From a virus: a stretch of 42,832 bases of DNA. Positions 2,946 to 36,845 of this stretch are shown piece by piece. Positions within the stretch are counted from its first letter, which is position 1, and the number at the start of each line of letters is the position of its first letter. The translations under genes were made by a program, and so were the position numbers. A model generated the notes under the pieces. It did not search any database. It had not been told where the DNA came from and worked only from the letters and a program-made list of their open reading frames with translations. The DNA lies in IMG/VR virus record IMGVR_UViG_3300047380_001867, positions 1 through 42,832 of that record; one strand, written 5' to 3'.

Positions 2946-3125
2946 TTATATTTTCGTGTTTTTAATTTTGTCTATTAGTAGATAGAATAAGATTAAAGTA
3001 CCTGGCCAATGAGATGAATATTGTGCTTCTTCTATTTCACCTGTTAAACCCAATCCTACTGAGTAAACTAATGCTACTAAAGCAATTAATACTGGTAGCC
3101 ATTTTCTTACATTAAATTTTTTCAT
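2946..3125 (-). CDS. Small two-helix membrane protein (59 aa)
   Basis: Unrecognised. A basic start (MKKFNVRKW) precedes a first hydrophobic helix (about residues 10-28). A short acidic loop (GEIEEAQYSS) leads to a second hydrophobic segment (about 41-52) and a basic end. The small two-helix layout recalls holins or membrane anchors, but no family is recognised. Confidence 0.55.
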   Translation of the reverse strand: MKKFNVRKWLPVLIALVALVYSVGLGLTGEIEEAQYSSHWPGTLILFYLLIDKIKNTKI

Positions 3126-3144
3126 GTTTATTTATTTTTATTTA

Positions 3145-3681
3145 TTATTCTGTTGTATTAATTATACCTCCTATAATCTTAGTATCAGCTAAATGGTCAA
3201 ACTCTCCATATGTTTCAATCAAGTATCCCGTATCAACTCTTTTGAATGAACTGATACACAATCCCTTTAACTCTTCACTGTCAAAGCGTTCTCCTAAGTT
3301 TGTATGAGTACTGAGGTAAGGACCTCCGCTTGGATCAACCATATTAACAGTCTTAGTATCTGAGTATACTAACTGTCCATATTGAGCTGTGATGGGTCCG
3401 GGACCTACATACTCATCATTCTCGTTGTATAACATCTCATGTACCTGCTCTTTAAAGCTTTCAATGTGCATTGGATGACCACCTTGAGAACCTACATCCT
3501 TACAGTACTGCTGGTAAGCATGTTTGTATACATTAGGCCATCCAAATCTGCAATGCTTGAATTCACCTTCCCACAATACATTACCATCCTCTTGTTTAGT
3601 GAATGTGTAAACGTCTCCGTATCTGTTTGATAATCTTATTGGGTTGTTAGGCATTTCTTTTGATTCTTGAGTTATATTCAT
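3145..3681 (-). CDS. Hypothetical protein (178 aa)
   Basis: Not recognised. It is a soluble protein of mixed composition with several tryptophan, histidine and cysteine residues (for example EFKHCRFGWPNVYKHAYQQY) but no arrangement I can match to a known metal site or enzyme. The start overlaps the stop of the gene before it in an ATGA. Its length and clean reading frame leave little doubt that it is coding. Confidence 0.75.
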   Translation of the reverse strand: MNITQESKEMPNNPIRLSNRYGDVYTFTKQEDGNVLWEGEFKHCRFGWPNVYKHAYQQYCKDVGSQGGHPMHIESFKEQVHEMLYNENDEYVGPGPITAQYGQLVYSDTKTVNMVDPSGGPYLSTHTNLGERFDSEELKGLCISSFKRVDTGYLIETYGEFDHLADTKIIGGIINTTE

Positions 3682-5423: not shown

Positions 5424-6170
5424 TTATTTATTTTGATTTGTAAAGAATTCCATTACTTGATCACTCTTCATTGTAGCTAATGCAGCATCGTATTTTTTAG
5501 CAATTTTGTAATCACCATTACTATGAACATTAAGTATAATGTAACTACCATTATCAAATTGACCTTTAACACGTTGAGTACTAACAAACTTTCTACTGTA
5601 ACGATCATAATCAGTAAAGATATGAAATTTAGCTGTTGGGAATTTTTTACGTAAAGTTTTTAAAGCAATCTCAAAACCTCTATTACTTCTACGAGTTTCT
5701 TCCATGTCGTATTCAGCACGATCACGTTTAAAATTTAATTTAGCAAGTAAAGTAGCTGGTTTAACTTTACGGTAACTACCCATTAAGCTCTCACATTCAA
5801 ATTTACCATTAGCAAAATCAAACCAATTAATTTCAATATCAACTATTTTATCATCTTCACGGCTGTAACGCTTACTTAAAAAACTAATACCACCACGCTT
5901 ACCTGTGTAGCTAACATCATTAACTAGGAAATTAGAATTATTAAAGCTGTAACCTAATTCAACATCTTCAACTACATTATATATTTCAAAATTATTGTTA
6001 AAATCAACACCTTTAACAAAACCTGCATCAATTAATGCAATTTCTGTTTCCTCATTTTTAATTTTAGCACTTTGTGCTCTAACTACTTGATTATTAATAA
6101 ATTCTTCTAGTTGAGTTTGTTGTTTTGTATTTAAAACAACTCCTTGAAACAAATCTAACTGCATTTCCAT
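5424..6170 (-). CDS. Hypothetical protein (248 aa)
   Basis: Not recognised despite its good length. The N-terminal 35 residues look like a helical lead (MEMQLDLFQG onward). The centre is rich in aromatic and acidic residues, and the last third alternates basic helices with strands (IALKTLRKKFPTAKFHIFTDYDRYSRKF). No catalytic motif, membrane segment or metal site is obvious. It is the first gene after the promoter at 6206-6237, with a leader of about 30 bases. Confidence 0.75.
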   Translation of the reverse strand: MEMQLDLFQGVVLNTKQQTQLEEFINNQVVRAQSAKIKNEETEIALIDAGFVKGVDFNNNFEIYNVVEDVELGYSFNNSNFLVNDVSYTGKRGGISFLSKRYSREDDKIVDIEINWFDFANGKFECESLMGSYRKVKPATLLAKLNFKRDRAEYDMEETRRSNRGFEIALKTLRKKFPTAKFHIFTDYDRYSRKFVSTQRVKGQFDNGSYIILNVHSNGDYKIAKKYDAALATMKSDQVMEFFTNQNK

Positions 6171-6445: not shown

Positions 6446-6676
6446 TTACTTTTTCAGGATATTAAATAATACAAACGCACCCACTAATCCAAGTAAGCCT
6501 GCTGCGTCTAAATTGCCTAAAATTCCCATGATATTATCTACAACAGATATATCTTTCCAGAAGGGAATATTGGCTCCGCCAAATAGTACTTCTAATACTA
6601 TTCCTAAAGAGATTACTGAAATACCTATCTCAGTAAGTTTGTTGGCCCAAGAGCCAATTTTGCTTAAAATTTCCAT
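6446..6676 (-). CDS. Small two-helix membrane protein (76 aa), separately terminated
   Basis: It begins MEILSKIGSWANKLTEIGIS, with hydrophobic segments at about residues 17-33 and 55-74 and a glycine-rich loop between them (LEVLFGGANIPFW). The C-terminus is basic (KK). Two short helices and small size are compatible with a holin or pore protein, but the sequence does not prove it. It has its own terminator directly downstream, and the receptor gene upstream ends at another terminator, so this gene is probably transcribed alone. Leader sequence upstream of 6676 is AT-rich, and no clear copy of the window's promoter motif is present. Confidence 0.68.
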   Translation of the reverse strand: MEILSKIGSWANKLTEIGISVISLGIVLEVLFGGANIPFWKDISVVDNIMGILGNLDAAGLLGLVGAFVLFNILKK

Positions 6677-6777
6677 TTAATAAAATTTAAGGTTAAACTT
6701 ATATAACTACCGATCGAGTTTTGGTAACTATAGCAGTAGAGCAAGTACTGCGCGTTGTGTATTCATACATATAGAAA

Positions 6778-6798
6778 GGGGGTTGAAAAACAACCCCC
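6778..6798 (-). terminator. Hairpin terminator downstream of the TonB-dependent receptor
   Basis: A perfect 8-pair stem (GGGGGTTG with CAACCCCC) around a 5-base loop lies 23 bases past the receptor stop codon. The minus-strand tail is only TTT then mixed, so termination may be weaker than at the two neighbouring sites. Confidence 0.7.
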
Positions 6799-6820
6799 TC
6801 CACTATATTTGTTGGTTAAC

Positions 6821-9385
6821 TTAGAAGTTATACTTCAAAGAAGCATTCCAAGTACGTCCAAATCCAAACCAAACTGAATTACGAACATCAACACCGTTCC
6901 AGGTAGTTGAAGTTTCATCAGCATGAATACTTGTATTTGATTCTGCAATATAAACAGCATCTAACAAGTTATTTACGTTAAGACGTAATGTCCAGTTTTT
7001 AAAACGAGACGTTAAACCTAAATCAACTAAACCATAAGAAGGTAATTTAACAGCACCTCTATTATCAGGAGTGTAAAATTCTTCATCTACAATTGAATAG
7101 TCAGCATATAGACCATCTACTAAACGAAGACCTAAATCAATACTAGTAGATTTAATTAGCTTATAATCAGCAGTAAAATAAGCAGTAGTTTGAGCTGCAT
7201 CACCTACTTTAGCACCTTTTAAGTACAATGTACCTTCACCAATTTGAACTTGATTATCATCAAACAATGCTGCTGTGAAATCTTTAGTATATCTCCAGTC
7301 ACCTAAAGAAACCATACCTTTCAATCTCAACTTACTAGTAGCAAAGTAATCTGCTTCAAGCTCTATACCATTATGACGAACATCAATATCTGTAAATTGA
7401 GCTGAACCATCAACACCTTGAGAATTACTCAATGATACTGTTTGGAAACGATTTCCCCATATAGTAGAATAAGCATTAACATTAACAGTTAAATTCTTAG
7501 CATTATAACCATAACCTACTTCAAATGAAATAATTTCTTCATTTTCTAGATCTGGGTTAATTGTGTTTCCATAATTAGGGAATACAGCACCAAATTGAGC
7601 TTGACGTGAAATGTATCCTGTATTTACAAATATATTATGTACATCAGAAACGTTGTAGTTAACACCACCTTTTGCATATCCACCTAATTGATTATGAACA
7701 TCTGAGATAGGCATTTCTGGTTGGTCGAAATAATCTTTACGTTGGAAAGATTGATTTGATAAACCACCTTGAATTACTGCATTGTACTTACCGTCTTTAT
7801 TATACTCAACTAAACCATTCAAACCTTGCCATCCTACAACACCTACGTTATAATAGTCAATTTTTGGACCGTTTAATCCTGTATTATTAAATGGACTTGC
7901 ATTAACTGTAGTGTTAATAATTTGACCATTTGAATTCTTATTTCCTGTTGAATAATATCCATCAAGACCCATCAAGTTATTTACTACACGATAGTGATAA
8001 CCTGTATAAGAACGTAAATCAACACCAATTGATGTTTTAAAATTACCAAATTGTCCTTCTAAATTAGATATAGCACCAACCCAGTCATGTGAATTCATAG
8101 AAGCTCTACGTATAAGTACAACTCTATTAACATTACTATCGCGGAAACCATTTGATCCTATCATTTGACCATCAAATCCTGAAATATCACCAGTATAACC
8201 ATCTGTTGAGCTTTGATTTGCTGCAACAATTGCATCGAAATCAATAGCACCAGTAATAGAATCACGTGCACCTTTACCATCTTCAAGGTAGTGCTCTGTT
8301 AAATCCTTTCTAAAAGGTAAAATGTCAGTTGCAGATCCTCTATAGTTATTACCTCTTGGACCTGTTCCTCCACCTCTACCAGCTGAACCATACAATGAGG
8401 TAACTAGTTTAAGGTTGTCTGAAATTTCCCAATCCCAGTTGAATGTTGCTAATGGCTTATTATAGAAATTTCTACGCATAGAAAACTCTTCACCATTTAA
8501 CATACCACCATTTGAATTCCATCTACGATTAATATCGCCAGTTTCTAGATCATCTCTATCTCCATGGAAATTTTGATAATCACGAATAGATACCCAAACG
8601 TCTCTTTGATGATGTTGTTGTCCTGCACCTAAAAAGGTAAAGTTTAAGCTATGATCTGAACCTTCTGGAGCATAACCTACAGCAGCAAAGTAGTTATAAC
8701 CTTCACCTGCAGTACTGTTAATGTATCCATTACCTAACCATCTACTTAGAAGGAAAGATGTTGCCCATCCACTCTTATTTTTACCACTATTCCAAACAGC
8801 TGATGTTTTAAAGTAACCATCGTTACCTGCCATTTGAGTCAATGATCCACCTGCTTTTTTATCAGCAGCTTTTGTATAGATACTTACCGTACCACCTACA
8901 GAAGGGACTGCTAATTTAGAAGCACCAAGACCTCTCTGAATCTGGATACCAGAAGCAACGTCTGTAAGACCTTGCCAGTTGGACCAGTACAATCTACCAT
9001 TTTCCATATCATTAACAGGTTGCCCGTTAATAAGGAATGAAGTGTTGGTTTGATCAAATCCTCTTAAAGAGATCCTTGAATCACCATACCCACCACCTTG
9101 CTTGGTAGCGTACACACCTGGAGTTGTGTTCATAATTTCTGGGAACTCTAAGTTACCAGTCTTTAAAGAAATCTCTGCCATAGAGATTGTTGATACTGCT
9201 ATTGGAGTTTCTCTCACTTTAGCAAGATCAATGACTCCTGATGAAACTACTATCTCTTCGAGCATAGTTGCATTCATTACAGAATCAATGGCATTAATGT
9301 CAGCGTCTGTACTTGTTTGACCAAGAGCAACGTTAACAGAAAATAGCATACCAATTAATAGGAATGCGAATTTACCTTTTTTCAT
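6821..9385 (-). CDS. TonB-dependent outer-membrane receptor
   Basis: An intact 854-residue receptor. I place the start at 9385 (MKKGKFAFLLIGMLFSVNVA), which gives a lipophilic signal peptide cut before Gln-23. A TonB-box-like EEIVVSSG follows the signal peptide, then a plug domain with the usual landmarks (NTTPGVYATKQGGGYGDSRI, SLRGFDQTNTSFLINGQPVN, GGTVSIYT). The rest is a beta barrel ending in WNASLKYNF, the usual C-terminal aromatic strand. Such receptors import siderophores, vitamins or glycans across the outer membrane using TonB, and serve as phage receptors in Bacteroidota. No SusD partner or carboxypeptidase-like N-terminal domain is present; the substrate is unknown. By eye its GC content is a little higher than that of its neighbours, in line with acquisition from a host. 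Terminators lie on both sides. Confidence 0.95.
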   Translation of the reverse strand: MKKGKFAFLLIGMLFSVNVALGQTSTDADINAIDSVMNATMLEEIVVSSGVIDLAKVRETPIAVSTISMAEISLKTGNLEFPEIMNTTPGVYATKQGGGYGDSRISLRGFDQTNTSFLINGQPVNDMENGRLYWSNWQGLTDVASGIQIQRGLGASKLAVPSVGGTVSIYTKAADKKAGGSLTQMAGNDGYFKTSAVWNSGKNKSGWATSFLLSRWLGNGYINSTAGEGYNYFAAVGYAPEGSDHSLNFTFLGAGQQHHQRDVWVSIRDYQNFHGDRDDLETGDINRRWNSNGGMLNGEEFSMRRNFYNKPLATFNWDWEISDNLKLVTSLYGSAGRGGGTGPRGNNYRGSATDILPFRKDLTEHYLEDGKGARDSITGAIDFDAIVAANQSSTDGYTGDISGFDGQMIGSNGFRDSNVNRVVLIRRASMNSHDWVGAISNLEGQFGNFKTSIGVDLRSYTGYHYRVVNNLMGLDGYYSTGNKNSNGQIINTTVNASPFNNTGLNGPKIDYYNVGVVGWQGLNGLVEYNKDGKYNAVIQGGLSNQSFQRKDYFDQPEMPISDVHNQLGGYAKGGVNYNVSDVHNIFVNTGYISRQAQFGAVFPNYGNTINPDLENEEIISFEVGYGYNAKNLTVNVNAYSTIWGNRFQTVSLSNSQGVDGSAQFTDIDVRHNGIELEADYFATSKLRLKGMVSLGDWRYTKDFTAALFDDNQVQIGEGTLYLKGAKVGDAAQTTAYFTADYKLIKSTSIDLGLRLVDGLYADYSIVDEEFYTPDNRGAVKLPSYGLVDLGLTSRFKNWTLRLNVNNLLDAVYIAESNTSIHADETSTTWNGVDVRNSVWFGFGRTWNASLKYNF

Positions 9386-9426
9386 TGTTTTGAATTTAGT
9401 TAATATTAATGAATTGTGAATATAAT

Positions 9427-9451
9427 AAAAAAAGGCGGCCAAGGCCACCTT
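9427..9451 (-). terminator. Strong rho-independent terminator before the receptor gene
   Basis: On the minus strand a 9-pair stem (9451-9443 with 9440-9432, one G-T pair, very short loop) is followed by seven T. It ends the unit that starts at the promoter 12462-12493 and lies 42 bases before the receptor ATG. An in-frame upstream ATG for the receptor would have to be read through this hairpin, which argues for the start at 9385. Confidence 0.9.
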
Positions 9452-9572
9452 CAATTATTCTTTTTGAATAAAAAGTCAAATTATTATTTATATAAAAGTA
9501 AGTACTATTCATATTTTTTATAATTATCTTAACATACATATTATAAAACTTTTGTTAATTAATTCTAATTTT

Positions 9573-10211
9573 TTATGATATATAAGAATTTAAAAACTTA
9601 TCGAGTCCCATTATATGTTTAATATAACCCCCCATGTTATGATCTGCAGTATTAAAAGGAAGCATCTTTACGTTAGGCATATCTTTTATATGATCAAATT
9701 GATTTACATCAAAAGAATTAAGTACTGGGACACATACATCAATTTTAGTAGAATAATTAATACTACTTAAATGATATTTTAAATCTACACAATACATATC
9801 ACCTTTGTATAAATTATCTAATTCCTTCATCCAGGGGAAATCTTTTAGATCTTTACTTAATAAAGTTTGGGGTGAAAAAGCAACTACTTGATTAACATTT
9901 AATAAAGTTCCAAATAAAATTGCAGCAAAGGCTCCAGCTGAGTTTCCTATGCATATTGTTGTTTGGTATTTAGAAGAATAGCTTTTAATTAATTCTACTG
10001 TACTTTCTACACTATTATGTTTTTGTGAAATCCCATTTTGATACCAAATTCTTTTAGGATCTTTTACGAATAAAGAATCAACTTTAAGATTTTTTACTGA
10101 TGAGTTAAATTCAAACATAGACATACCCATCTTTTGATGGAGCCCTCCAAAAGATACTAATAAGGTTTTATTTCCTTTTGGATTATACTGTATATTTTCG
10201 TCTTCAATCAC
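9573..10211 (-). CDS. Alpha/beta-hydrolase-like protein
   Basis: A 212-residue protein with the hydrolase layout: a strand with an oxyanion-type turn (LLVSFGGLHQ, about 17-26), a nucleophile elbow GNSAGA at 89-94 (Ser-91 as nucleophile) and a late histidine in TADHNMGG (His-191). The acid could be one of the aspartates in SFDVNQFDH. Related small hydrolases occur in polysaccharide and glycoprotein clusters, where some remove or transfer acyl groups. It is the last gene before the strong terminator and lies 3 bases after a 2OG oxygenase gene, so it may act on the same product. The precise reaction is not determined. Confidence 0.65.
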   Translation of the reverse strand: MIEDENIQYNPKGNKTLLVSFGGLHQKMGMSMFEFNSSVKNLKVDSLFVKDPKRIWYQNGISQKHNSVESTVELIKSYSSKYQTTICIGNSAGAFAAILFGTLLNVNQVVAFSPQTLLSKDLKDFPWMKELDNLYKGDMYCVDLKYHLSSINYSTKIDVCVPVLNSFDVNQFDHIKDMPNVKMLPFNTADHNMGGYIKHIMGLDKFLNSYIS

Positions 10212-10214
10212 AAT

Positions 10215-10808
10215 TTATGATATATTCCATGAGATAGCTATCCTAGATTCCGTACTATCATTTGGTAATACTGCATGCCTCACATAAGGTGGGAAAACGG
10301 TGTAATAACCTGTAGCCGGGTAAAGATATGTGTTAGTCCAATTTAAAGGATTTGTACTATCTTTTTTAGGGATTTGAGTTAATAAAGCTGGAAATACTGG
10401 AGTTTCAAATTCTAATGGAGAACTATTTTCTGGTACTTGAAGATACCAAACACCTGAAAGTAAACAATTATAATGAGTATGGGATTTATGAAAACTACCT
10501 TTTTCTAAAGCATTTGCAATTAAAAATATCTCACCCTTTAAGAAATCTGAATCATAACCCAATTGATCAAGATATTGTTTGCTTACATTAAAAACAAACT
10601 CTTTCATCAAGTCCATTTCTGGGTGTTCTGCTAATCTAAAGTCATCTTGGTTATGAGTTGTTTTACCTTTCCAAAAAAACTCAGTATCTGCTTGTTCTTC
10701 TAAAATTTTATTAATGATAGGTAAGTAATGATTTGCTAATTCTGTGTTCCATCCATAACCCATTGATGTTGGGAAATATGATTCAATTTTTACGTCTGTC
10801 TCTACCAT
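10215..10808 (-). CDS. 2-oxoglutarate/Fe(II) oxygenase
   Basis: A 197-residue protein resembling the small 2OG-Fe(II) oxygenases of the 2OG-FeII_Oxy_5 type. The segment HKSHTHYNCLLSGVWYLQVP (from 107) holds the metal-binding His-x-H pair (His-110 and His-112). The C-terminal strand VFPPYVRHAVLPND has His-178, and Arg-189 in SRIAISW would bind 2-oxoglutarate. These enzymes hydroxylate proteins, nucleotides or small molecules; many are found in phages without a known substrate. It is adjacent to a second 2OG oxygenase (10811-11749), with 2 bases between them. Confidence 0.82.
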   Translation of the reverse strand: MVETDVKIESYFPTSMGYGWNTELANHYLPIINKILEEQADTEFFWKGKTTHNQDDFRLAEHPEMDLMKEFVFNVSKQYLDQLGYDSDFLKGEIFLIANALEKGSFHKSHTHYNCLLSGVWYLQVPENSSPLEFETPVFPALLTQIPKKDSTNPLNWTNTYLYPATGYYTVFPPYVRHAVLPNDSTESRIAISWNIS

Positions 10809-10810
10809 AA

Positions 10811-11749
10811 TTACTTATACCAACCTGTATAGCTGATCCTTTTATTATTTATTCCTTGTGCTACTTCACTTACTAAATGTGGCGCACCTTCTTTATTTTC
10901 CCATTTTGTATCAAAAATAGATAAAGTATTAAATGGAGGTGATATTGTTTTGTTTATAGTTTTCCAATCCCAATCCATTCTCATAAACAAACCTCCCATT
11001 TCAGGTTTCCAACCTTTTGACATGTGAAAAACAAATGCAATTCTTCCATTTGAACCATCAGTATGAGGACCATTATAATGACCTGGACCATAATTAGAAA
11101 TAAAGGTACTACCTTCACTGTATTCTAAATTTTCATATCCAGTAATGCTGGACAAGTAGTCTAGAAATCTTTTATCTTGAAATATTTTTAAATATGAATG
11201 TAGTTGAACACTTAAATCACTAGTTCTTCTATAAATGTAACTAAAAATACCTTGATTATTTAAATCATGGCAATGGGCTATTCTTTGAGGTATACTAGGA
11301 TCATTAGATTTAGCCCTATACATATGGTAATATGAAGGATTATCTATAGCAGATTGTTCATAATCAAAATCAGGATCGGGGTATAAGATTAAATCCCACC
11401 AATCATCAGGTTGGTTAAAATAATAATTATGAAGTGTATTTATTTGAGTCTCAGGGAATAAATTAGTAATATTTACTGCTTGATTTTTATTCCATTGTTG
11501 TTTATAATCCTCTAGATTATTTAACTGTAAATTAAAGTTACCAGTATCAGTATCAGGATTCATTCCAAGGTCCATACGTTGCCTACTATCTGAAGGGATT
11601 TCAGGATGAATTTGGTTGGTTTGAGGGTGAAATTGAGATGTAGTTTTATCTATAGATTGAACAGGTGTTGATACTAAACCTGCTTGTTCATCTATTGTTT
11701 GTTGATAACCATTTTGGGAGAAATCACCTCCCTGTTGTCCTTTGATCAT
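10811..11749 (-). CDS. 2-oxoglutarate/Fe(II) oxygenase with Q/N/T-rich N-terminal extension
   Basis: A 312-residue protein with a C-terminal prolyl-4-hydroxylase-like domain. The iron triad is His-229 and Asp-231 (GPHTDGSNGRIAFVFHM) plus His-291 (APHLVSEV), and Arg-304 is placed to bind 2-oxoglutarate. The first 80 residues are low in complexity, rich in Gln, Thr, Asn and Pro, and look disordered. Such a tail is unusual for this family and may be a docking region for a virion protein. Substrates of related enzymes include protein prolines and sugars. The gene is packed against the second oxygenase, suggesting consecutive or complementary steps. Confidence 0.8.
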   Translation of the reverse strand: MIKGQQGGDFSQNGYQQTIDEQAGLVSTPVQSIDKTTSQFHPQTNQIHPEIPSDSRQRMDLGMNPDTDTGNFNLQLNNLEDYKQQWNKNQAVNITNLFPETQINTLHNYYFNQPDDWWDLILYPDPDFDYEQSAIDNPSYYHMYRAKSNDPSIPQRIAHCHDLNNQGIFSYIYRRTSDLSVQLHSYLKIFQDKRFLDYLSSITGYENLEYSEGSTFISNYGPGHYNGPHTDGSNGRIAFVFHMSKGWKPEMGGLFMRMDWDWKTINKTISPPFNTLSIFDTKWENKEGAPHLVSEVAQGINNKRISYTGWYK

Positions 11750-15111: not shown

Positions 15112-16098
15112 TTATGGCATATTTCTTATTTTAAATACTCCCCAATATAAATCCGTAAATTCAGGATCTAATACTTCATTAATAACCTCACCATTAATTT
15201 CAACTATTTCACATTTAGTAGGTTTATAATCTAAGTTAAATTCAAAGGTTGAAGCTTTATCTAATATTATATGTTTATTATTTCCAAAATTAAATGTTAT
15301 ACTATAGATATGTTGTTTTAATTCCCAAATAAATACGTTAACATTATTATTATCTTCGTCCCAACCAATATTACAATATGTTATATATTGTAAAGTTTTT
15401 GGAAAATCTTTTGGTATATCACCATGTTTTCTTAACCCTGTTGATGTTAAGGTAGCTGGTAGGTTGGGTTTGGTTTTTAAGATATGATAGTTTAATTCAC
15501 TTACTTTAAAACATTCTTGCATAAAATCTTCAGAAATAAAATTATCACGCCTAGTAATTAAGTCACGATAAAAAGTTTCTGTCATTACACCCTTTAATTT
15601 GGTAAAACTAGGATTAATTTTAAAACCTATAGAAGTTCCATCAAGCCCTTTTTCAGGTTGATGTTTAACAGGAGTAAATTTATGACATATTACTTCGTGG
15701 TCAATTAATTTATCTAAACATACTTCTCTAAATGGTTGAAAATTAGTTAAATCTACATCATAAACTAACCAATAAGCTATTTCATAACCTAAATTTCTAA
15801 CAAAACCTAATGATTTTACTATTTGTTCTAAAGCAGCATACCCATAATCAGGAAACCAATTTGAAATATATTTCCCTTCAGCTATTGACCAATGATTTAA
15901 TGTTCGTTCTTGTATAATTGGGTTTGATTTATCATAAATCCAATAATCACACATTTTTTGTGTTGACTCTGGGATAGGATATCTACCAAATACTAAAACA
16001 TCTAATCCTAATTTTTTTGCTTTTTTAATACTAGTTTCTAAAGCATTTAATTTAGCTTTTGTATTACAATATGAACCAAATATAACTATTTCTTTCAT
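15112..16098 (-). CDS. Glycosyltransferase-like protein, paralogue of 26407-27339
   Basis: A 328-residue protein. The first 230 residues look like a GT-A nucleotide-sugar fold (start MKEIVIFGSYCNTKAKL; acidic strand end WLVYDVDLTNF, a DxD-like site). The last 90 residues form a separate beta-rich domain. Shared landmarks with 26407-27339 (a YP..S.TQK segment, a short YD/YN..NP strand, then a LGY...YD segment) suggest a divergent pair of paralogues. It overlaps the kinase gene upstream by ATGA, so the two are likely made together. The sugar donor and acceptor are unknown. Confidence 0.65.
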   Translation of the reverse strand: MKEIVIFGSYCNTKAKLNALETSIKKAKKLGLDVLVFGRYPIPESTQKMCDYWIYDKSNPIIQERTLNHWSIAEGKYISNWFPDYGYAALEQIVKSLGFVRNLGYEIAYWLVYDVDLTNFQPFREVCLDKLIDHEVICHKFTPVKHQPEKGLDGTSIGFKINPSFTKLKGVMTETFYRDLITRRDNFISEDFMQECFKVSELNYHILKTKPNLPATLTSTGLRKHGDIPKDFPKTLQYITYCNIGWDEDNNNVNVFIWELKQHIYSITFNFGNNKHIILDKASTFEFNLDYKPTKCEIVEINGEVINEVLDPEFTDLYWGVFKIRNMP

Positions 16099-16838
16099 TC
16101 GAATTCTGGGGTTACTACACCTCTTTGTGAGACTACTTCTGAGGACTTACGATTAGCAAATTTAATTGCTGCGCTTTCATCTTTTAATTGATAGTATTTT
16201 ACTATAAAAGCAGCTGTAAATGTATCACCAGCACCTGAAACATCAATAGTATCTTGGGGGTTAGGTGATTCAAATAATATATTTTTATATTCAGCACCTT
16301 TTTTACCTAAAGTAGTAATAATATTATCTTTAGTTAAATTTGGGTTATTTAATTTTTCAGATTCGTTTAATTTAACAAATGTAAAACCTTCAATAATATC
16401 ATCAGTTAACTTACGTTTACTATCTAGAATAGATAAAGTTGATTTACGAGCAATTTCTTTTAAATCAGCGTTTGATAAAAACCCCTTATTATAATCACTA
16501 ACTATTACAATATCAGCTTCAGCAATAGAAGAATCAATAAACATACTCCATTGGAGATGGTCATCAAATTTTTCACCCTTATCTACTCTAAGAAACATAT
16601 GATTTGATTTTTCTTCTACGTAGCGTGTTTTAACAATTTTTTTCTTTTGAGTAATATTAGCCATTATAGCTTCAGGTGATAATGCTTTCACATTAGCAAA
16701 TGTATTACCTGCCATTCCTGGGTTTTCAGTCGATTTAATTGGGTTTAAAACAGGTACTGGTGCCTCTGGTGATAATCGTTTAGCATCGCAGTAAACGAAT
16801 TCATCAACACAAGTTTCTCCTATTACTAATACTTTCAT
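16095..16838 (-). CDS. PfkB-family sugar kinase, heptose-7-phosphate kinase-like (HldE/RfaE N-domain)
   Basis: A 247-residue ribokinase-family enzyme with a start at 16838 (MKVLVIGETCVDEF). The motif RLSPEAPVPV at 21-30 is the characteristic opening of D-glycero-D-manno-heptose-7-phosphate kinases (HldE N-domain). GMAGNTFANV then binds the sugar, and DVSGAGDTFTAAF (199-211) holds the catalytic Asp-205. HldE kinases make heptose-1,7-bisphosphate, the precursor for ADP- or GDP-heptose. The protein is shorter than the usual 310 residues of that domain and has no attached nucleotidyltransferase, although separate nucleotidyltransferase and HAD phosphatase enzymes are encoded at 29166-31938. Confidence 0.8.
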   Translation of the reverse strand: MKVLVIGETCVDEFVYCDAKRLSPEAPVPVLNPIKSTENPGMAGNTFANVKALSPEAIMANITQKKKIVKTRYVEEKSNHMFLRVDKGEKFDDHLQWSMFIDSSIAEADIVIVSDYNKGFLSNADLKEIARKSTLSILDSKRKLTDDIIEGFTFVKLNESEKLNNPNLTKDNIITTLGKKGAEYKNILFESPNPQDTIDVSGAGDTFTAAFIVKYYQLKDESAAIKFANRKSSEVVSQRGVVTPEFE

Positions 16839-16977
16839 TTTCTTTTGATTCTTGAAGTTCAATACTTAAAGCATTACATAATGATATTATAGTACCAGGT
16901 TCATACTCCATCATATAAACAAAGTCATTATCTGACATAATCTGCATTACTTGTAGGACAGATAATTTACTTACCAT
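16804..16977 (-). CDS. Hypothetical protein (57 aa)
   Basis: Not recognised. I place the start at the ATG at 16977 (MVSKLSVLQVMQIMSDNDFV), because a longer frame would run through the preceding gene. The product is helical with a short acidic tail. It overlaps the kinase gene by about 35 bases, more than is usual in this window, and the preceding small gene by 11. Confidence 0.45.
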   Translation of the reverse strand: MVSKLSVLQVMQIMSDNDFVYMMEYEPGTIISLCNALSIELQESKENESISNRRNLC

Positions 16978-17107
16978 AGTCACTAAAACGTGGCTGTGAG
17001 GGTTTTTTCTTTTTAACAGCATTTTTAAAGTTTGGATAGTTAGATTTAGCCCAACTATGCCATTCCATAAATGTTTCGTAACGTTGTTTTGCGCTTGTAT
17101 TACTCAT
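16967..17107 (-). CDS. Small basic protein (46 aa)
   Basis: Not recognised. It begins MSNTSAKQRYETFMEWHSWA, followed by a lysine-rich segment (VKKKKPSQPR). It has no membrane segment and could bind nucleic acid. It overlaps the lysozyme-like gene by 8 bases and the following gene by 11. The start has the AT-rich upstream sequence typical here. Confidence 0.5.
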   Translation of the reverse strand: MSNTSAKQRYETFMEWHSWAKSNYPNFKNAVKKKKPSQPRFSDYGK

Positions 17108-17585
17108 TATTTAATTGTTTTTCTATTTTATTCCAATATTTTTCGGTTCTTTTTATTTTATAACCTTTAGGACCACCATTCCAATTACGAGCAATAACTT
17201 CATTATTACTATCTTTATGATGGAAATTTTTCCAAACCATAAACATACGTATTGATTGTTGACGATCAAACCTATCTTTTAAATTGAATAGGTTTGTTTT
17301 ACCTTGAATTTTTAAGATTCTATTAACTTCTCTAACCATTATAGGTCTAATTTGTAATACACCTATGGCTTCATTTCCTATAAGATGCCTGTCGCCAATA
17401 GCAGAATCATCACCATTAGACTCAACAAAAATAAGGGCATTGAGAAGGTCTCCATCTGTAATAACAGGTTGAATGTTCTTAGGCTTAATTTCGATAATAG
17501 TTTCTTCATAACATACTTCTAATGTTTCTATATTACCACTATTAATAAATAATGGTAAGAGACTTAATAACATAACCTTTTTCAT
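17100..17585 (-). CDS. Secreted lysozyme-like lytic transglycosylase
   Basis: A 161-residue protein with an N-terminal hydrophobic signal-like stretch (MKKVMLLSLLPLFINSGN). The SLT/goose-lysozyme-like core follows: ALIFVESNGDD with the catalytic Glu-55, IGVLQIRP (74-81) and NWNGGPKGY (134-142). Such enzymes cleave peptidoglycan glycan strands during infection or release. The signal peptide would let it reach the periplasm without a holin, as with some phage exolysins. Neighbouring genes are not lysis genes: it sits between the sugar-kinase region and small basic proteins. Confidence 0.78.
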   Translation of the reverse strand: MKKVMLLSLLPLFINSGNIETLEVCYEETIIEIKPKNIQPVITDGDLLNALIFVESNGDDSAIGDRHLIGNEAIGVLQIRPIMVREVNRILKIQGKTNLFNLKDRFDRQQSIRMFMVWKNFHHKDSNNEVIARNWNGGPKGYKIKRTEKYWNKIEKQLNNE

Positions 17586-17589
17586 ACAA

Positions 17590-17886
17590 TTATTTTTTTA
17601 ATTCTTGTATTGCTTTAGCAATTCGAGCACAACCTTCATAATCTTCGTTACGCTCATGAATTTCTAAATTCTGCTGTAATGTACTAAGAATATCTCGCCT
17701 ATCCAAGGTTATATCAAAAATTTGTCCTTCTTCTTCAACATGAATTTCTAAAACAGGTATAAAACGTTTTTTACTTTTTAAATTTTTTAATGCCACTTCA
17801 GTTATAGCTTTGGAAATTTTAAGATCTTGATCTTGAAGCATCATTTCAAATTCTTCTATACTTTTTATTCTAATTCGTTTTACCAT
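17590..17886 (-). CDS. Hypothetical protein with UVR-like C-terminal motif (98 aa)
   Basis: The last 35 residues (LQQNLEIHERNEDYEGCARI, continuing AKAIQEL) look like the UVR helical hairpin found at the end of UvrB and in ClpE/McsA-type proteins, where it binds a partner. The first 60 residues are of mixed alpha/beta type with no known domain. The similarity is only by pattern. It could bind a host UvrC or Clp-type protein. Confidence 0.55.
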   Translation of the reverse strand: MVKRIRIKSIEEFEMMLQDQDLKISKAITEVALKNLKSKKRFIPVLEIHVEEEGQIFDITLDRRDILSTLQQNLEIHERNEDYEGCARIAKAIQELKK

Positions 17887-18069
17887 TTAAAATAGGTCTA
17901 AAAATTTACCGTCTGATTTCTTATCCCGTAATTTACTAAGTTTTTCTTGGTCTTCCAACATTTTATCAGCTAGTTTTTCTAAATGTTTAGACTTTTGATT
18001 GTCATAATCATTAACTAACTTATCATGTTTACGTTTTTTACGTGCTAATTTACTTTTACGTTTTTTCAT
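17887..18069 (-). CDS. Small basic coiled-coil protein (60 aa)
   Basis: Not recognised. It is lysine- and arginine-rich (MKKRKSKLARKKRKHDKL), with a helical middle of heptad-like leucines (HLEKLADKMLEDQEKLSKL). A nucleic-acid-binding coiled coil is the likeliest shape. It directly abuts the next gene and overlaps the preceding one by ATGA. Confidence 0.6.
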   Translation of the reverse strand: MKKRKSKLARKKRKHDKLVNDYDNQKSKHLEKLADKMLEDQEKLSKLRDKKSDGKFLDLF

Positions 18070-18704
18070 CGTCTGGATACTAAGGAATAAGGGTCATCGC
18101 TTTCATCTTGATCGCTTAAACCTAGTTTTTCTAATTGTTGTTTTTGGTAATCATCTAATTCCCATTCTACCTCACTTTGATATGTTGGGACATGGTCTTC
18201 TATACCCTTAATCTGTTTGTCGCTAAATATATCTCCTACTTGTAGGAAATAATGATTGTAACAAAGTAATTCTATGTTTTCTTTTCGATAATTATTTTTA
18301 TTATTATCTTTAAAATTAAGTAATAATGGTATCTTATAATCGTTTACTCTACGTTCATGAAAACCACATACTGAACATTCTTCTTTTAAATATCCCTCAG
18401 TTATTAATCTATATTTTAATTTATCAGGACTAAATGATGAAGCATCTATTCTGCCTTCAATAATATCTAATAAAGCAGGTTCGGGTCCATCTGCTCTTAA
18501 AAATTTAGGTATACCTTTACCTGCCTGATTTAAATGTTGGTCAAATAAATTACTGTAACCCTCTTCCGTTGCATCATATGTTTTAGCCCATTTTTTATAG
18601 TGTGTATAAGAAACATGCAAATAGCGAGCAGCAGCTTTATTACTCAATGTTTGAGACATAGCTGCCAATATTAATTCTTTATTAAGTGGTTTCGCGCTTG
18701 GCAT
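18066..18704 (-). CDS. Degenerate HNH-like protein with N-terminal helix-turn-helix
   Basis: A 212-residue protein. Residues 18-40 (TLSNKAAARYLHVSYTHYKK) look like a helix-turn-helix of the resolvase/AraC kind. A later segment has an HNH-like zinc frame: CSVCG, then a hydrophobic strand (IPLLLNFKDNNKNN) and ENIELLCYNHYF. In active HNH nucleases the strand carries a histidine (as in DH); here that position reads NF, so the enzyme may have lost cutting activity and act only in DNA binding. An alternative is a new metal-binding domain. The adjacent 60-codon gene also encodes a zinc-binding protein. Confidence 0.6.
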   Translation of the reverse strand: MPSAKPLNKELILAAMSQTLSNKAAARYLHVSYTHYKKWAKTYDATEEGYSNLFDQHLNQAGKGIPKFLRADGPEPALLDIIEGRIDASSFSPDKLKYRLITEGYLKEECSVCGFHERRVNDYKIPLLLNFKDNNKNNYRKENIELLCYNHYFLQVGDIFSDKQIKGIEDHVPTYQSEVEWELDDYQKQQLEKLGLSDQDESDDPYSLVSRR

Positions 18705-18886
18705 TAATCTTCAATAAATACTATTTCATTAAATGTGTGATCACCTTCTCCAAATTGAGCATTAATTGCTTTTTTAGGTTTAGTTTCACTACAGTTAACA
18801 CAAAAACTATAATTAAACTTAGTTAGTCTAAGTTCAGGCATTGGTTCTTGACAAACCGAACAATTTATATATTTTATGTCTTTCAT
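18704..18886 (-). CDS. Small zinc-ribbon protein (60 aa)
   Basis: Two CxxC pairs (CSVC at about 9-12 and CVNC at about 29-32) suggest a four-cysteine zinc ribbon like those in DksA/TraR-type proteins. It lacks the long coiled-coil that DksA uses to reach RNA polymerase. The C-terminus is acidic and hydrophobic (GDHTFNEIVFIED). Its start lies 29 bases after the stop of the preceding gene and its stop shares a base with the next start. Confidence 0.58.
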   Translation of the reverse strand: MKDIKYINCSVCQEPMPELRLTKFNYSFCVNCSETKPKKAINAQFGEGDHTFNEIVFIED

Positions 18887-18915
18887 ATCGAGTTTTATTG
18901 GTTACTCAATACATA

Positions 18916-19284
18916 TCACAATTTTTGTAAAAACTTCCACAAATCTAGAGGGGTTTTTAATGTATAAACTTTTCCATTTTTATCTTCTACTCCTAATAAC
19001 TTACCATCTTCAGCAAATCTGTCTAAAACCCACCACCAAATTATATCAGCTTTATTATAACCATATTTAGCTATAATTAAATTTTCTATTGCATGATAAT
19101 AATATTGACTAAAACTAATTAAATCAACTCCATAATCATTATTCAATTCATGCTCAGCATGCCAAATATGTTCTAACGTTTCTATTGTGTCAATAAATAA
19201 TGTTATTTCACGTTCAGCTTCGGTTTTAGGTGATTCTTTTATATTTAAACCATTTCCATATTTATTTTGAAGGATTTTTTTCAT
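18916..19284 (-). CDS. Hypothetical protein (122 aa)
   Basis: Not recognised. A largely helical protein with aromatic-rich helices (IIWWWVLDRF) and no membrane-length hydrophobic run. It overlaps the glycosyltransferase gene upstream in an ATGA. About 29 bases without a gene follow it. Confidence 0.65.
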   Translation of the reverse strand: MKKILQNKYGNGLNIKESPKTEAEREITLFIDTIETLEHIWHAEHELNNDYGVDLISFSQYYYHAIENLIIAKYGYNKADIIWWWVLDRFAEDGKLLGVEDKNGKVYTLKTPLDLWKFLQKL

Positions 19285-20054
19285 TTAAATTTAGTTAATA
19301 ATTTAGAATTGGTTTGTGGATCATGTTCTATTGTTTGACCCCATTTATTTGAAAAAAAGTAATGTGCTTGTTTTTCTTTTTCACTACTAATTTGATTCAT
19401 TAAAGGATCTCTTCTAGTTGCTATACTACCAAAATGATATAAATGTAAATCATAAACTCTAACCATTTCAAAACCTACATATTCACACTTTAACATAAAA
19501 TCCCAATCAACAACATGAGGTGAAGGATAATAAACATCTAACCCCCCAACAGCCATATAATCAGGTTTATACATTAAGAAAGGCCATTGTGATCCTGATT
19601 TTTCATGAGGTGGGATAGGAAGTGATGCTTCGTATTCCCAGAAAGTTTTTAAATTGAAAGATTCTGGAGTCCCTAAATTTTTAATATGGGTTTGTTTAAA
19701 CATTGAAGGTTGAGCTTCAATCTGGTTGATTGTAATTACTTTACCTTTTTGACAATATGGTTTTAATTTTGTATCCCAATGTTCAGGAAAAACATTATCA
19801 TCATTTACTATTAAAATAAAATCATTAGATGCATTATAAACTCCCCAATTTGTGGATGTAATAGCACCCTTATTATCATTAAAATTTACTATTTTAGTTT
19901 TAGGGTATTTATCTAATACTTGTTGGTTTAAATCTTTAAATCCATCAACTACCACAATAATTTCATTATCACCATCTTGACCCTTAAATATTGAATTTAA
20001 ACAAATATCAAGTACATCTGGTTCTTTATATGTTGGGATTATAACTGAAATCAT
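19281..20054 (-). CDS. Family 2-type glycosyltransferase (GT-A)
   Basis: A 257-residue protein with the standard GT2 opening (MISVIIPTYKEPDVLDICLN) and a DxD-like metal site at 85-86 (LIVNDDNVFPEHW). A later aromatic segment (VVDWDFMLKCEYVGFEM) would hold the acceptor side and catalytic base. GT2 enzymes transfer sugars from UDP-, GDP- or dTDP-sugars with inversion. It is coupled (ATGA) to a second GT2 gene and followed by other transferases, so it is part of an assembly line. Donor and acceptor cannot be told from the sequence. Confidence 0.88.
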   Translation of the reverse strand: MISVIIPTYKEPDVLDICLNSIFKGQDGDNEIIVVVDGFKDLNQQVLDKYPKTKIVNFNDNKGAITSTNWGVYNASNDFILIVNDDNVFPEHWDTKLKPYCQKGKVITINQIEAQPSMFKQTHIKNLGTPESFNLKTFWEYEASLPIPPHEKSGSQWPFLMYKPDYMAVGGLDVYYPSPHVVDWDFMLKCEYVGFEMVRVYDLHLYHFGSIATRRDPLMNQISSEKEKQAHYFFSNKWGQTIEHDPQTNSKLLTKFK

Positions 20055-20677
20055 AAAGTATCGTAGTAAGCATTTTGTTTTTCTTGGCGTTCGATTGTTT
20101 TATTATGAATTAAAGCAAAATCTTCTTTTATAGGTAAAACAGCATGTGTAGCATGCCCAATAATTTTTTCATGTACCTCACCATGCCATCTAATACGTGG
20201 ATCATTTCTATATAATCTCCACTGCATATCAGGCCAATTTACTCTACCTTTTTCATCAACTTTCCAACCCCATTTTTGAATATGGGCCTCAGTCAATCCT
20301 TCTACTTTATTAATACGTGGAACTCTCATTAAATCTACCCCTTGATTAATCTCTAACACTTGAGGGATTATCTTTATCATGTATTCATTAAGCATTTCGT
20401 CAGCATCAATCTGGAATATGTAATCGCCTTCACACATTCCATTTAAACGATTTTTCATGTCTGAAAAATTGCCATTGAATTTAAAAGGTTTCCATCTAAA
20501 TAAGGTCCTTTCAACATTCATTTTACGTAAATAAGTTTCTACTCCAGGATCTCCATTTTTTGAATCATATAATACTACAATTTCATCTTCGGGGCGTTTG
20601 TTATCTAGTAAAAATTTAATTAAATGTTGAATTTCTACTAATTCATTACAAACAGGGATTGCATAACTTAATTTCAT
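20051..20677 (-). CDS. Family 2-type glycosyltransferase (GT-A, short)
   Basis: A 208-residue protein opening MKLSYAIPVCNELVEIQHLI, with a DxD site IDADEM at 90-95. The later segment MQWRLYRNDPRIRWHGEVHE is typical of the small GT2 enzymes of the WaaE/KdtX type, which act on lipopolysaccharide cores. It is shorter than most GT2 proteins but has the full donor-binding half. The stop and start overlap with the next GT2 gene (ATGA). Confidence 0.87.
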   Translation of the reverse strand: MKLSYAIPVCNELVEIQHLIKFLLDNKRPEDEIVVLYDSKNGDPGVETYLRKMNVERTLFRWKPFKFNGNFSDMKNRLNGMCEGDYIFQIDADEMLNEYMIKIIPQVLEINQGVDLMRVPRINKVEGLTEAHIQKWGWKVDEKGRVNWPDMQWRLYRNDPRIRWHGEVHEKIIGHATHAVLPIKEDFALIHNKTIERQEKQNAYYDTL

Positions 20678-20680
20678 ATT

Positions 20681-21136
20681 TTAATTTTCAAAAACACCAA
20701 TATATTCTAAAGCATCCATAAAATCACTTTCAGGGTAATATTTTATAGTAGTCATATCCATTTTAAATTCATAATCTTTACCTTTAGCTTTAAATGATTC
20801 TTTCTCTTCTTTAGGCATAGGAACTGCTTTTACAGCGGACCACATCCACTTTTCAGCACTTTGACCCTCAGCAAATACCATTCCCTTATTTGGGATATTT
20901 ACAGTATTGGGCATCCAAATTAAACCTGTTTTTTCATCTTCACCTGATATTTCTTTATAAAGTTTAGGTAAAAGAGCAAATTGTTCTTCAAAAAATTGTT
21001 CATCTTTTTTCATTAATGAATTTGTAATGAAACCACAACCATAACACATATAGTTTTTAATCTCATTATTTACTTCTTGTACATAGCATGCGTCACTTCC
21101 ACATCTATCACATATTGTTAAATTATCTACACTCAT
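20681..21136 (-). CDS. Zinc-ribbon protein (151 aa), unknown function
   Basis: An N-terminal four-cysteine ribbon (CDRCGSDACY and CYGCGF within the first 40 residues) is followed by about 110 residues of unrecognised alpha/beta sequence. It resembles phage proteins of unknown function that I have seen in other marine T4-like genomes, but I cannot name one. It lies 3 bases before a glycosyltransferase gene and is coupled to another upstream. Confidence 0.62.
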   Translation of the reverse strand: MSVDNLTICDRCGSDACYVQEVNNEIKNYMCYGCGFITNSLMKKDEQFFEEQFALLPKLYKEISGEDEKTGLIWMPNTVNIPNKGMVFAEGQSAEKWMWSAVKAVPMPKEEKESFKAKGKDYEFKMDMTTIKYYPESDFMDALEYIGVFEN

Positions 21137-22392
21137 AATGTTGGTAAGGTTAATTCTGGGATTGCTAATTCGATTTGTTTTGGGAATTCTGGGGCAAAAG
21201 CAGTAAGAAGATTATCTAATTTATCTTTCATACTTTCCCAATCAAAATTTGTTTTACTATAATGGGCCTGACGTTTTGCTAGTTCAGAATATTTTTTATA
21301 ATTTTCAAATACAGATTTTAATGATTTTGAAATATCCTTGTGGTCTGGGGAGAACCATTGGCTTTCTTTTAATAACATTGGGTTAGCAGCACTAGGATGG
21401 ACATTTTCTAGTTTACCATTAATTAATGTAGTAAATTTAGGATTAAGAAAATCCATATGACCACTCCATTTTGTTGCAATTAATGGTTTTTTAGTTAAAG
21501 TAAATTCTAATAAAGGTCTACCGAATCCCTCACCTTTAGTTAAACTAACCATAGCTTTAACTTTAGAATGATTATAAAGAGAATTCATTTCTTTATCTGT
21601 AAAATCACCGTGAAGTAAATATATGTTAGGAAGATTTCCCTTACAACTCTGTTTAATTACATGAATTTTTCTAAGAATCTCATTTTTATCCATGTAAGAA
21701 CTATTAGCACCCGATGTTTTAAGAATTAATGCTGGTTGTTTAGATTTATTTTTAAAAGTCTCTAAAAAGGCCTTAACTAATAACCCAACATTTTTTCTAT
21801 CTTGGCCTATTTCCCCTTGTAACCAATGACCTACAAATAAGAAAGCAAATGATTCCTTAATATCAAAATCAATCATACATGGTTTATTATCTGGGAAGTA
21901 GGTGTCTAAATTAACTCCTTCAAATAACACTTCAATAGGTTTTTCAAGGCGAATAGAACTTATAGTTTTACCTGCTTTATCTTTCTTTTCCCAAACGGCA
22001 TTCTTAAATGAGGTTTTAGAGTGTTCTGATGATACCAAATTTAAATTCATTCTGTTCATACCTTCAACCCATGCTCCATTTGCTAATGTAGTTTCAATAC
22101 CTGCTGTAATTCCAATATTAAATTTTCCCATAGGTTGAAATTCATTAGGTACGGTTATCTGAGCCCAAAATTCAGGTTTATCGATTAATTCTTCATTTAA
22201 AATATGGTTATTTAAAAATTCCCATTCTGGATGATCATCGCAAAATCCAAATCTAGTGTTTCCCCAAGGTTGGGAAATTAATTTAACTTTATATTTATCT
22301 GTTTTAATAATAGCTTTAACAACATCTCTACTACGAGCTCCATAACCAGAGTAAGTATCAAAAGGACAACTAATTAAAAATAAGGGTTTCAT
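21133..22392 (-). CDS. Family 4-type glycosyltransferase (GT-B)
   Basis: A 419-residue GT-B enzyme. The N-terminal half binds the acceptor (MKPLFLISCPFDTYSGYGAR). The C-terminal half has the nucleotide-sugar motif EGFGRPLLEF (288-297), the E-x7-E site of GT4 enzymes (Glu-288 and Glu-296). It is paired with a second GT4-type gene directly upstream (1-base overlap). Such pairs build linear glycans; the sugar is unknown. Confidence 0.85.
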   Translation of the reverse strand: MKPLFLISCPFDTYSGYGARSRDVVKAIIKTDKYKVKLISQPWGNTRFGFCDDHPEWEFLNNHILNEELIDKPEFWAQITVPNEFQPMGKFNIGITAGIETTLANGAWVEGMNRMNLNLVSSEHSKTSFKNAVWEKKDKAGKTISSIRLEKPIEVLFEGVNLDTYFPDNKPCMIDFDIKESFAFLFVGHWLQGEIGQDRKNVGLLVKAFLETFKNKSKQPALILKTSGANSSYMDKNEILRKIHVIKQSCKGNLPNIYLLHGDFTDKEMNSLYNHSKVKAMVSLTKGEGFGRPLLEFTLTKKPLIATKWSGHMDFLNPKFTTLINGKLENVHPSAANPMLLKESQWFSPDHKDISKSLKSVFENYKKYSELAKRQAHYSKTNFDWESMKDKLDNLLTAFAPEFPKQIELAIPELTLPTL

Positions 22393-23819
22393 TAATATAA
22401 TAATTTATGTGGAACAGTTTCTATTTTATACTCATTAGTATTAATAAATTCAAATTTTTCTCTTGGTTGGAAATCTTCAAATGTTTTATCAATACTTTTG
22501 ATTACACGTTGAGCTTGATGTTTAGCAGTAAAACCTGCTTCATCTCCTATTGCCCATTTATAACCTTTCATCCCTGATTTTTTTCGTTGTTCAGGGGACA
22601 TTTTATAAAGCTTCATAATTTGTTTAGAAGCATCTTCGGGATCACAAGTATCATCCCAAATATAAGGAGTTTTAGGAGAACCTTTTAAAGAACGTGATGA
22701 GGGGTAAACAGGATAAGCCCATTTACCATGTTTTTTATAAGTACCTCTATGATTAGAAGGAAAATTAGAATCAAAGTCAATCCAATTTCCATTTTTATCT
22801 TCAAATCTCATTTGATCTTGCATACCACCTGTTACATTAGCAATTATAGGAGTGCCTGTTAGTAAGGCTTCAGTAAGAGATAAACCCCAACCTTCGTTTG
22901 AGGTTAATAAAATCTGAGCATCTGCTAAATTATATAGGTAATTTAGATGTTGAGCTGATAATTTATTAGTAGAAAATCTAATATGAGGGCTATTCTCTCC
23001 AAAAATTAAGTTAGCTATTGCAGAAAGATCTGTACCATGATCACTAACTAATTCTGTATGAAGTATGAATACACATTTATCTGCTTTTTCTTTAGGTAAT
23101 TCATCTAAAAAATACTTCCAAGATAACATTGTATCTGGGATGTTTTTACGTCTGATGTTTCTAGAATTAAAGAATAAAATAAAATCTTTATCTTCAACAT
23201 TTAATTGTTTTTTAAATGTAGTAAATTCTAAATCTTCTACTATAATAGGATGAAAAACTTCGGTATTCATACCATGAGGTACATAATCAATAATTTTAGT
23301 TTTAGCTTTATCCCCCAAAACCATTTTATTGATGTTAACTGTTTGCTTAGAAATACCTAATAGTGTATCAACGGATTCATAAAATCCCTTATTATACATA
23401 GGAGCAGGTAAATCATCCCAAATATTTAAATAGATAATAGGAATTTCATTTCTAACCTCATTTTCAATTTGGAACAACCACTCAAAGTAACGTGGATCTG
23501 TAATTAAAAATATAGCATCAATTTTATGTTGCTTTCTTAAGTTACGTAAAATTTTAGGATCCCCATAACCATCATTTGGTTGAATTTTAACACTAGCATC
23601 TTTAATTCCTGCTAATTTATTAGTTTCTTCCGAAATATCAATTATTTTACCTTTATCAGGGTGATTCATTGCTGCCCCTAAGTTAAACCAATTATAACGG
23701 TGGGATGTATGTAAAACTATTTCTTTACCTACATTGCCTACACCTGATGGGAATCTGATATCATCAGTAAGCAACAAAATATTTTTCCGTTGCTCTTTAG
23801 GAATATAACCTTCTTTCAT
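22392..23819 (-). CDS. Family 4-type glycosyltransferase (GT-B)
   Basis: A 475-residue GT-B enzyme. A glycine-rich loop (RFPSGVGNVGKE, 22-33) opens the N-domain. The C-domain has NSRNIRRKNIPDTM (218-231), a phosphate-binding region, and EGWGLSLTEALL (309-320) with the E-x7-E site (Glu-309, Glu-317). The length is a little above the usual 380-420, with a tail of about 60 residues after the fold. It starts the run of transferases towards 15112, and an RHH regulator gene lies just upstream. Confidence 0.86.
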   Translation of the reverse strand: MKEGYIPKEQRKNILLLTDDIRFPSGVGNVGKEIVLHTSHRYNWFNLGAAMNHPDKGKIIDISEETNKLAGIKDASVKIQPNDGYGDPKILRNLRKQHKIDAIFLITDPRYFEWLFQIENEVRNEIPIIYLNIWDDLPAPMYNKGFYESVDTLLGISKQTVNINKMVLGDKAKTKIIDYVPHGMNTEVFHPIIVEDLEFTTFKKQLNVEDKDFILFFNSRNIRRKNIPDTMLSWKYFLDELPKEKADKCVFILHTELVSDHGTDLSAIANLIFGENSPHIRFSTNKLSAQHLNYLYNLADAQILLTSNEGWGLSLTEALLTGTPIIANVTGGMQDQMRFEDKNGNWIDFDSNFPSNHRGTYKKHGKWAYPVYPSSRSLKGSPKTPYIWDDTCDPEDASKQIMKLYKMSPEQRKKSGMKGYKWAIGDEAGFTAKHQAQRVIKSIDKTFEDFQPREKFEFINTNEYKIETVPHKLLY

Positions 23820-23823
23820 TTAC

Positions 23824-24012: not shown

Positions 24013-24047
24013 AACGTTATTTATTATATTTTTATATACGTATATTA

Positions 24048-25821: not shown

Positions 25822-25837
25822 TAAATTATTTAATCGG

Positions 25838-25869
25838 TAAATATACGAAAGGATTCTCGGGTAACCAAA
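25838..25869 (-). promoter_or_regulatory. Bacteroidota-type promoter
   Basis: TTTG (25869-25866), 20 bases, TATATTTA (25845-25838), preceded by TTCG, on the minus strand. It is one of the best copies in the window and divides the glycan island into two transcription units. The predicted leader is about 10 bases. Confidence 0.8.
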
Positions 25870-25870
25870 T

Positions 25871-34933: not shown

Positions 34934-36841
<1,908 letters not shown>

Positions 36842-36845
<4 letters not shown>

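Follow-up and report, generated by a model that had tools for sequence, protein, structure and literature searches.

A host-type TonB-dependent receptor encoded by T4-like phages: predicted structure, host origin and candidate roles

Known phage auxiliary genes act mostly inside the cell. A gene for a complete outer-membrane receptor on a phage contig raises the question of whether it belongs to the phage and, if so, what it would do there. The window analysed here, that is, the whole stretch of 42,832 bases, is a complete IMG/VR record (IMGVR_UViG_3300047380_001867) and a linear fragment, and the gene lies at 6821–9385 on its minus strand, as do the parts of the receptor, the leader, the two hairpins and the 76-aa gene described below. 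The original prediction was of an intact host-type TonB-dependent receptor (TBDR), very unusual in a phage, carried in a moron-like cassette between terminators and possibly serving superinfection exclusion, receptor replacement or nutrient uptake.

The receptor and its locus

The open reading frame starts with ATG and runs uninterrupted to its stop codon in a single frame, encoding 854 aa. Pfam matches above the gathering cut-off were obtained for Plug (PF07715, residues 57–165, window 8891–9217, E = 2.7e-12) and TonB_dep_Rec_b-barrel (residues 300–807, E = 1.6e-12). By inspection of the translation, the N-terminus (MKKGKFAFLLIGMLFSVNVALG|Q) is signal-peptide-like (predicted signal peptide, residues 1–22, 9320–9385) and is followed by a TonB-box-like LEEIVVSSG (residues 42–50, 9236–9262), in which L42 and E44 are at least 90% conserved among 73 homologues; the C-terminus is -NF, with the terminal Phe present. 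Alignment-based AlphaFold2 modelling (pLDDT 80, pTM 0.80) placed the plug inside a 22-strand β-barrel (residues 178–854, 6824–8854), and Foldseek matched the model to the solved TBDRs PqqU, FhuA, FecA and OprC (TM about 0.73–0.80 normalised by target, 13–15% identity), with which it shares both plug and 22-strand barrel. With this N-terminal plug and barrel, the modelled product is a TonB-dependent receptor/transporter, and the predicted intact protein was borne out by open frame, Pfam and model, its signal peptide and TonB box remaining putative.

Assignment of a ligand by sequence or fold was rejected: the receptor had no sequence match in the PDB, NCBIfam gave weak sub-threshold matches alone (to B12, MxcH and TOL_0244 receptors), and the fold matches of the model, spanning PQQ, siderophore and copper receptors, are too broad for a ligand to be transferred from FhuA, FecA, PqqU or OprC. 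The sole PHROG matched was phrog_5687, for which no function is given (partial and weak, E = 1.4e-19), so that TBDR-like proteins are already present, unannotated, in phage catalogues.

The receptor and its neighbours occupy a variable slot of the phage backbone (5298–10214, unstranded), which in a collinear relative (G042/L145) holds other genes. This relative, G042 (130 kb), has a polymerase 87% identical to that of the window and collinear receptor-flanking genes, and lacks 9573–10211, the receptor, 6446–6676 and 5424–6170, with other small genes, about 1.5 kb in all, in their place. Since a collinear 130-kb relative does without it, the receptor is accessory cargo in the window lineage. 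A Plug domain was found in none of 50 records retrieved with the window polymerase, many of them short; in one of these, G029, the receptor (L067) is truncated before the plug. Absence from close collinear relatives, in the G042 slot and among these 50 records, is the mark of a moron.

Upstream, an intrinsic terminator (9431–9452, hairpin with T-run, fold z −4.1) lies 46 nt 5′ of the start codon and persists in phage L003 with different stem bases; the leader between terminator and ATG (9386–9430) is near-identical in L003, and the sequence further upstream is unrelated. By eye, a hairpin-like stretch also directly precedes the receptor start codon in L004, L006 and L076. Past the stop codon, a strong hairpin (6769–6808, z −4.0) is a probable terminator, with a poor T-tract and no call by the terminator scan, and is followed by a gene for a 76-aa hydrophobic protein (6446–6676) without Pfam or PHROG match that accompanies the receptor in L003. 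No strong promoter was recognised in the roughly 45 nt between upstream terminator and start codon: the promoter-like motif TTCGTATATTTAC, which precedes at least six other window genes, is present before the receptor in a weak three-mismatch form only, and the T4 late promoter TATAAATA, considered as a candidate, was rejected as missing from the window copy. Of the predicted moron-like cassette, the hairpins on both sides and the receptor-free slot in a collinear relative stand; no convincing promoter of its own was recognised. The recurrent motif TTTGGTTACC-N-TTCGTATATTTAC was seen on the window minus strand near 4071, 6217, 6366, 12473, 15089, 25849 and 37159; it resembles Bacteroidota promoters and is enriched 5′ of genes in G042, which also has a second motif, ATATTTATA.

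Phage residence, host origin and distribution

IMG/VR consists of metagenome contigs, and some short loci of the set could be host, so an assembly chimera, or host DNA binned as viral by mistake, was considered. The window encodes a clamp loader and a DNA polymerase of T4 type. It is collinear with, and essentially identical to, L002 (74,938 b), whose receptor differs by 2 nt; in L003 (47,041 b) the receptor is 98% and the next gene (6446–6676) 100% identical, against 45–94% for most other shared genes. Both receptor junctions recur in these two independently assembled contigs of 75 and 47 kb, which makes chimerism untenable. Comparison of composition and codon usage gave a receptor GC3 of 0.185, within 0.170 ± 0.041 for the other window genes and unlike the 0.33–0.41 of Schleiferiaceae homologues, with codon usage closer to phage than to host; GC3 is thus ameliorated toward phage values. 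The T4-type major capsid gene gp23 was found on four receptor-bearing contigs (297, 253, 184 and 75 kb) and terminase on four, and the host neighbours of the gene, either pgi/M23 or the TPR lipoprotein/GDPD pair, which stand at most genome loci, were found at no viral locus. On these sequence grounds chimerism and host contamination were rejected, their probability being close to negligible, and carriage by a phage is upheld by the T4-type genes of the window and by the near-identical and related receptor-bearing contigs.

The phylogeny of the receptor against Bacteroidota homologues placed its nearest cellular homologues in Schleiferiaceae, at about 80% identity and with the gene adjoining recA. 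Across a 98-receptor tree, labels had to switch 11 times between viral and genome, with at least eight switches forced by well-supported branches, and a 38-row tree built under a mixture model rejected monophyly of the viral copies (dlnL 539, p-AU 8e-73). A single viral origin is thus rejected, and the receptor was captured repeatedly. Receptors of Schleiferiaceae/Cryomorphaceae and of phage L004 formed a group with those of the window, L002 and L003 (support 99–100). Most genome copies lie in one of two cellular arrangements, M23–pgi–receptor or recA–receptor–TPR lipoprotein–GDPD, and viral copies never do, which makes the cellular locus the donor for the most part. For the recA-linked clade, which branches from among phage copies, transfer from phage to host is possible. 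The phylogeny therefore supports a host-type acquisition from Bacteroidota, nearest Schleiferiaceae. The host receptors (recA-side in Schleiferiaceae, M23–pgi-side in Flavobacteriales) belong to the same orthogroup, with 63–81% full-length identity and the same plug and loops, but sit on the chromosome as single genes in a conserved neighbourhood and have a higher GC3, whereas phage copies lack those neighbours. The idea that the gene is a universal host core gene at high identity was rejected, as 31 of 146 Flavobacteriales had a match at E < 1e-100 and three at 57% identity or more.

A scan of viral contigs recovered the orthogroup on at least 77 in IMG/VR, at 61–100% identity, so the view of such a receptor as very unusual in a phage did not hold. 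The carriers include records of 75–297 kb with a T4-type capsid gene and represent several T4-like lineages. A second T4-like lineage offered 39 loci with 8 kb or more of sequence downstream of the polymerase; in 12 of these, a 276-kb contig included, the receptor follows that gene at a distance of about 3–8 kb. In the jumbo phages L004, L006, L014 and L076, which are collinear with most flanking genes 54–92% identical, the receptor stands at one locus between conserved genes and is fixed in that lineage. In its flanks L004 shares up to 92% identity with L006, yet its receptor falls among those of hosts, which indicates replacement in place.

Capture appears to be directed at one family. The host SAG of L082 gave 18 Plug hits, and three of its other TBDRs, used as queries and searched likewise by a pattern search that favours strongly conserved proteins, returned no viral locus. 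In a panel of 50 T4-like phage records, which included known receptor carriers, 13 of 14 Plug hits were the receptor orthogroup, the exception being a BtuB-like second receptor in L005 (about 641 aa; L406, at 233192–233494 of the same jumbo-phage record), for which three further viral relatives were found.

Selection and candidate roles

Between the window and L003, dN/dS was 0.034 outside predicted extracellular loop L4 (residues 345–424, 8114–8353), and it was about 0.06–0.15 in other close phage receptor pairs; no complete receptor copy had a disrupted frame. These values indicate strongly purifying selection and maintenance in the phage. Taken together, a host phylogenetic origin and maintenance by selection in the phage characterise the gene as a probable auxiliary metabolic gene. 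With loop boundaries taken from the secondary structure of the model, conservation across phage and host proteins was 0.795 in predicted extracellular loops vs 0.804 in plug and strands. L4 is mosaic between the sister phages: of the 20 residues at which the window and L003 receptors differ, 15 fall inside it (naive p about 1e-12). The block is high in dS as well (dS 0.65, dN/dS 0.20), so positive selection on L4 found no support and one recombination event is the simplest reading; in a search for the donor of the block, no sequence of the set came closer to it than the sister phage.

We consider the best explanation, held with middling confidence, to be that the receptor is a working transporter, made during infection, that imports a ligand via the host TonB system. 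Expression, export, TonB coupling, transport and benefit to the phage, we infer, would run as follows: during infection, host machinery would synthesise, export and fold a functional outer-membrane active transporter that the phage had taken from a marine Bacteroidota host resembling Schleiferiaceae; host TonB–ExbBD would energise it, and it would bring in a specific small ligand whose supply limits the phage yield. We propose that one orthogroup has been repeatedly captured and kept because its ligand matters during infection. Consistent with this, the receptor retains every expected part, from the predicted signal peptide and TonB box through plug and barrel to the terminal Phe, dN/dS is purifying and GC3 ameliorated, and the 77 viral loci stand against none for three other TBDRs of the SAG. 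Loops as conserved as plug and strands are expected if the loops bind one ligand, although loop conservation alone cannot separate ligand binding from general structural constraint. Phage L044, whose contig has T4-type baseplate genes among other phage genes, also encodes TonB (PF03544, E = 1.8e-22) at 2955–3602, some 3 kb away from the receptor; together with the conserved loops this TonB favours energised transport over a mere decoy. No SusD partner (PF07980) was found in 33 receptor-bearing records, and in hosts the receptor is a lone gene next to pgi or recA, so that a single polypeptide would be enough. Against uptake, sequence and fold point to no particular ligand, TonB is encoded in one of 83 receptor-bearing records, the receptor is missing from most relatives and hence dispensable, no strong phage promoter was recognised before it, and a role in surface recognition would also account for the L4 mosaic and the replaced allele.

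That surface role is the basis of the main rival to uptake, in which a host receptor bound by other phages or the same phage is supplanted or diluted by the phage copy, its altered surface loops being unusable by competitors while transport is secondary and the cell stays viable. Such receptor swapping against superinfection is possible, at a probability clearly short of that given to uptake. It would account for window and L003 receptors that differ almost solely in L4, and for the L004 receptor, replaced in place by a host-grouping allele within otherwise phage-like flanks; TBDRs such as FhuA are also classical phage receptors, and PMC9586334 describes exclusion of superinfection by T5 via FhuA. 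Family-wide, however, variability in the loops does not exceed that of the barrel, the share of changes in L4 is in modest excess in other pairs (0.03–0.30 vs 0.10 expected), and the high-dS block resembles a single recombination rather than ongoing positive selection. The known exclusion proteins of this type are, moreover, small lipoproteins and not entire receptors: T5 Llp (PMC9586334; PDB 8a60) likewise acts at a phage-used TBDR but is a small lipoprotein that blocks the host receptor, whereas the window encodes the whole receptor, an 854-aa product outside the Llp/Cor type. Among the roles originally proposed, uptake is on balance somewhat better supported than superinfection exclusion, by the conserved loops and the TonB of L044; for replacement of a lost receptor, the evidence points neither way.

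A fresh receptor copy made after host shut-off could sustain uptake in general, with no specific ligand limiting the phage; T4-like phages do shut down host transcription, and the same capture pattern and purifying selection would be expected. This maintenance of the outer membrane is improbable, as it leaves the capture of one orthogroup among about 18 SAG receptors unexplained and existing outer-membrane proteins are stable through a lytic cycle. Very improbable is a neutral hitchhiker that arrived by transduction or recombination and from which the phage gains nothing: the patchy occurrence in the clade of the window, with no Plug among the polymerase-related records, would fit, but the hitchhiker is disfavoured by the signature of purifying selection (dN/dS 0.034, complete copies without a disrupted frame), by retention of 2.6 kb in compact genomes and by recurrent capture of one family.

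The repeated capture of the same one of the host's many receptors suggests that outer-membrane remodelling is a recurrent phage strategy. A broader reading, put forward tentatively and at somewhat less than even confidence, is convergence on one host receptor orthogroup by the T4-like phages that infect marine Bacteroidota: kept as cargo or core, with alleles exchanged in place with hosts and TonB added in at least one lineage, it would let the phage rebuild, on the infected cell, energised import of a key ligand or phage-receptor identity. If true, phages control the imports of the infected cell, or which phages can still attach. The recurrence makes this open to test, with a single orthogroup in many phages and pgi- or recA-linked host loci already known: the identity of the ligand would show a nutrient that limits phage production in abundant marine Bacteroidota, and if the protein proves to be a phage receptor, a new mode of superinfection exclusion would follow.

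Known counterparts and other genes of the window

The nearest counterpart is a putative TBDR, "SusC", of the marine megaphage Mar_Mega_1 and the related genome LR745206, likewise large marine phage genomes, for which raised carbohydrate uptake during infection was proposed (PMC9723777). This was the only phage TBDR in the literature searched, which gave no account of T4-like phages taking up one orthogroup again and again nor, by exact phrase, of phage-encoded TonB (most subscription literature and preprints lie outside that search). Among predicted viral proteins, the sole whole TBDR-like match to the receptor model was BFVD A0A8D9FQQ5 (uncultured marine phage 'SusC'; TM about 0.6, 11% identity), and LR745206 matches 24% of the receptor query at 30%. 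The megaphage SusC is a different family, whereas the orthogroup of the window is non-SusC and common to many T4-like phages and hosts at 61–98%. TIGR04056 (SusC/RagA) does not match the window receptor and matches only the N-terminal part of longer homologues, far below cut-off; with no SusD in the 33 records, a SusC/PUL-type glycan transporter was rejected.

Several other genes of the window were recorded. A phage flavodoxin lies at 1500–2021 (PF00258, E = 6.6e-20; phrog_883) and two 2OG-Fe(II) oxygenases at 10215–11749. Flavodoxin is an iron-sparing electron carrier, and the three genes give a weak hint of an iron theme; an iron role for the receptor drawn from them was set aside as too weak, a lead only. 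Two separate polypeptides make up the family B DNA polymerase (38445–41983), an N-terminal part at 40193–41983 (phrog_262 positions 20–566) and a C-terminal part at 38445–39371 (positions 565–842), separated by three small ORFs, and the parts are also apart in G042. GroEL and an adjacent GroES-like ORF occupy 34933–36845, and GroEL homologues recur in many receptor-bearing phages. A large block of glycosyltransferase, sugar-nucleotide and methyltransferase-like genes extends over 15112–32935 and is partly replaced between close relatives.
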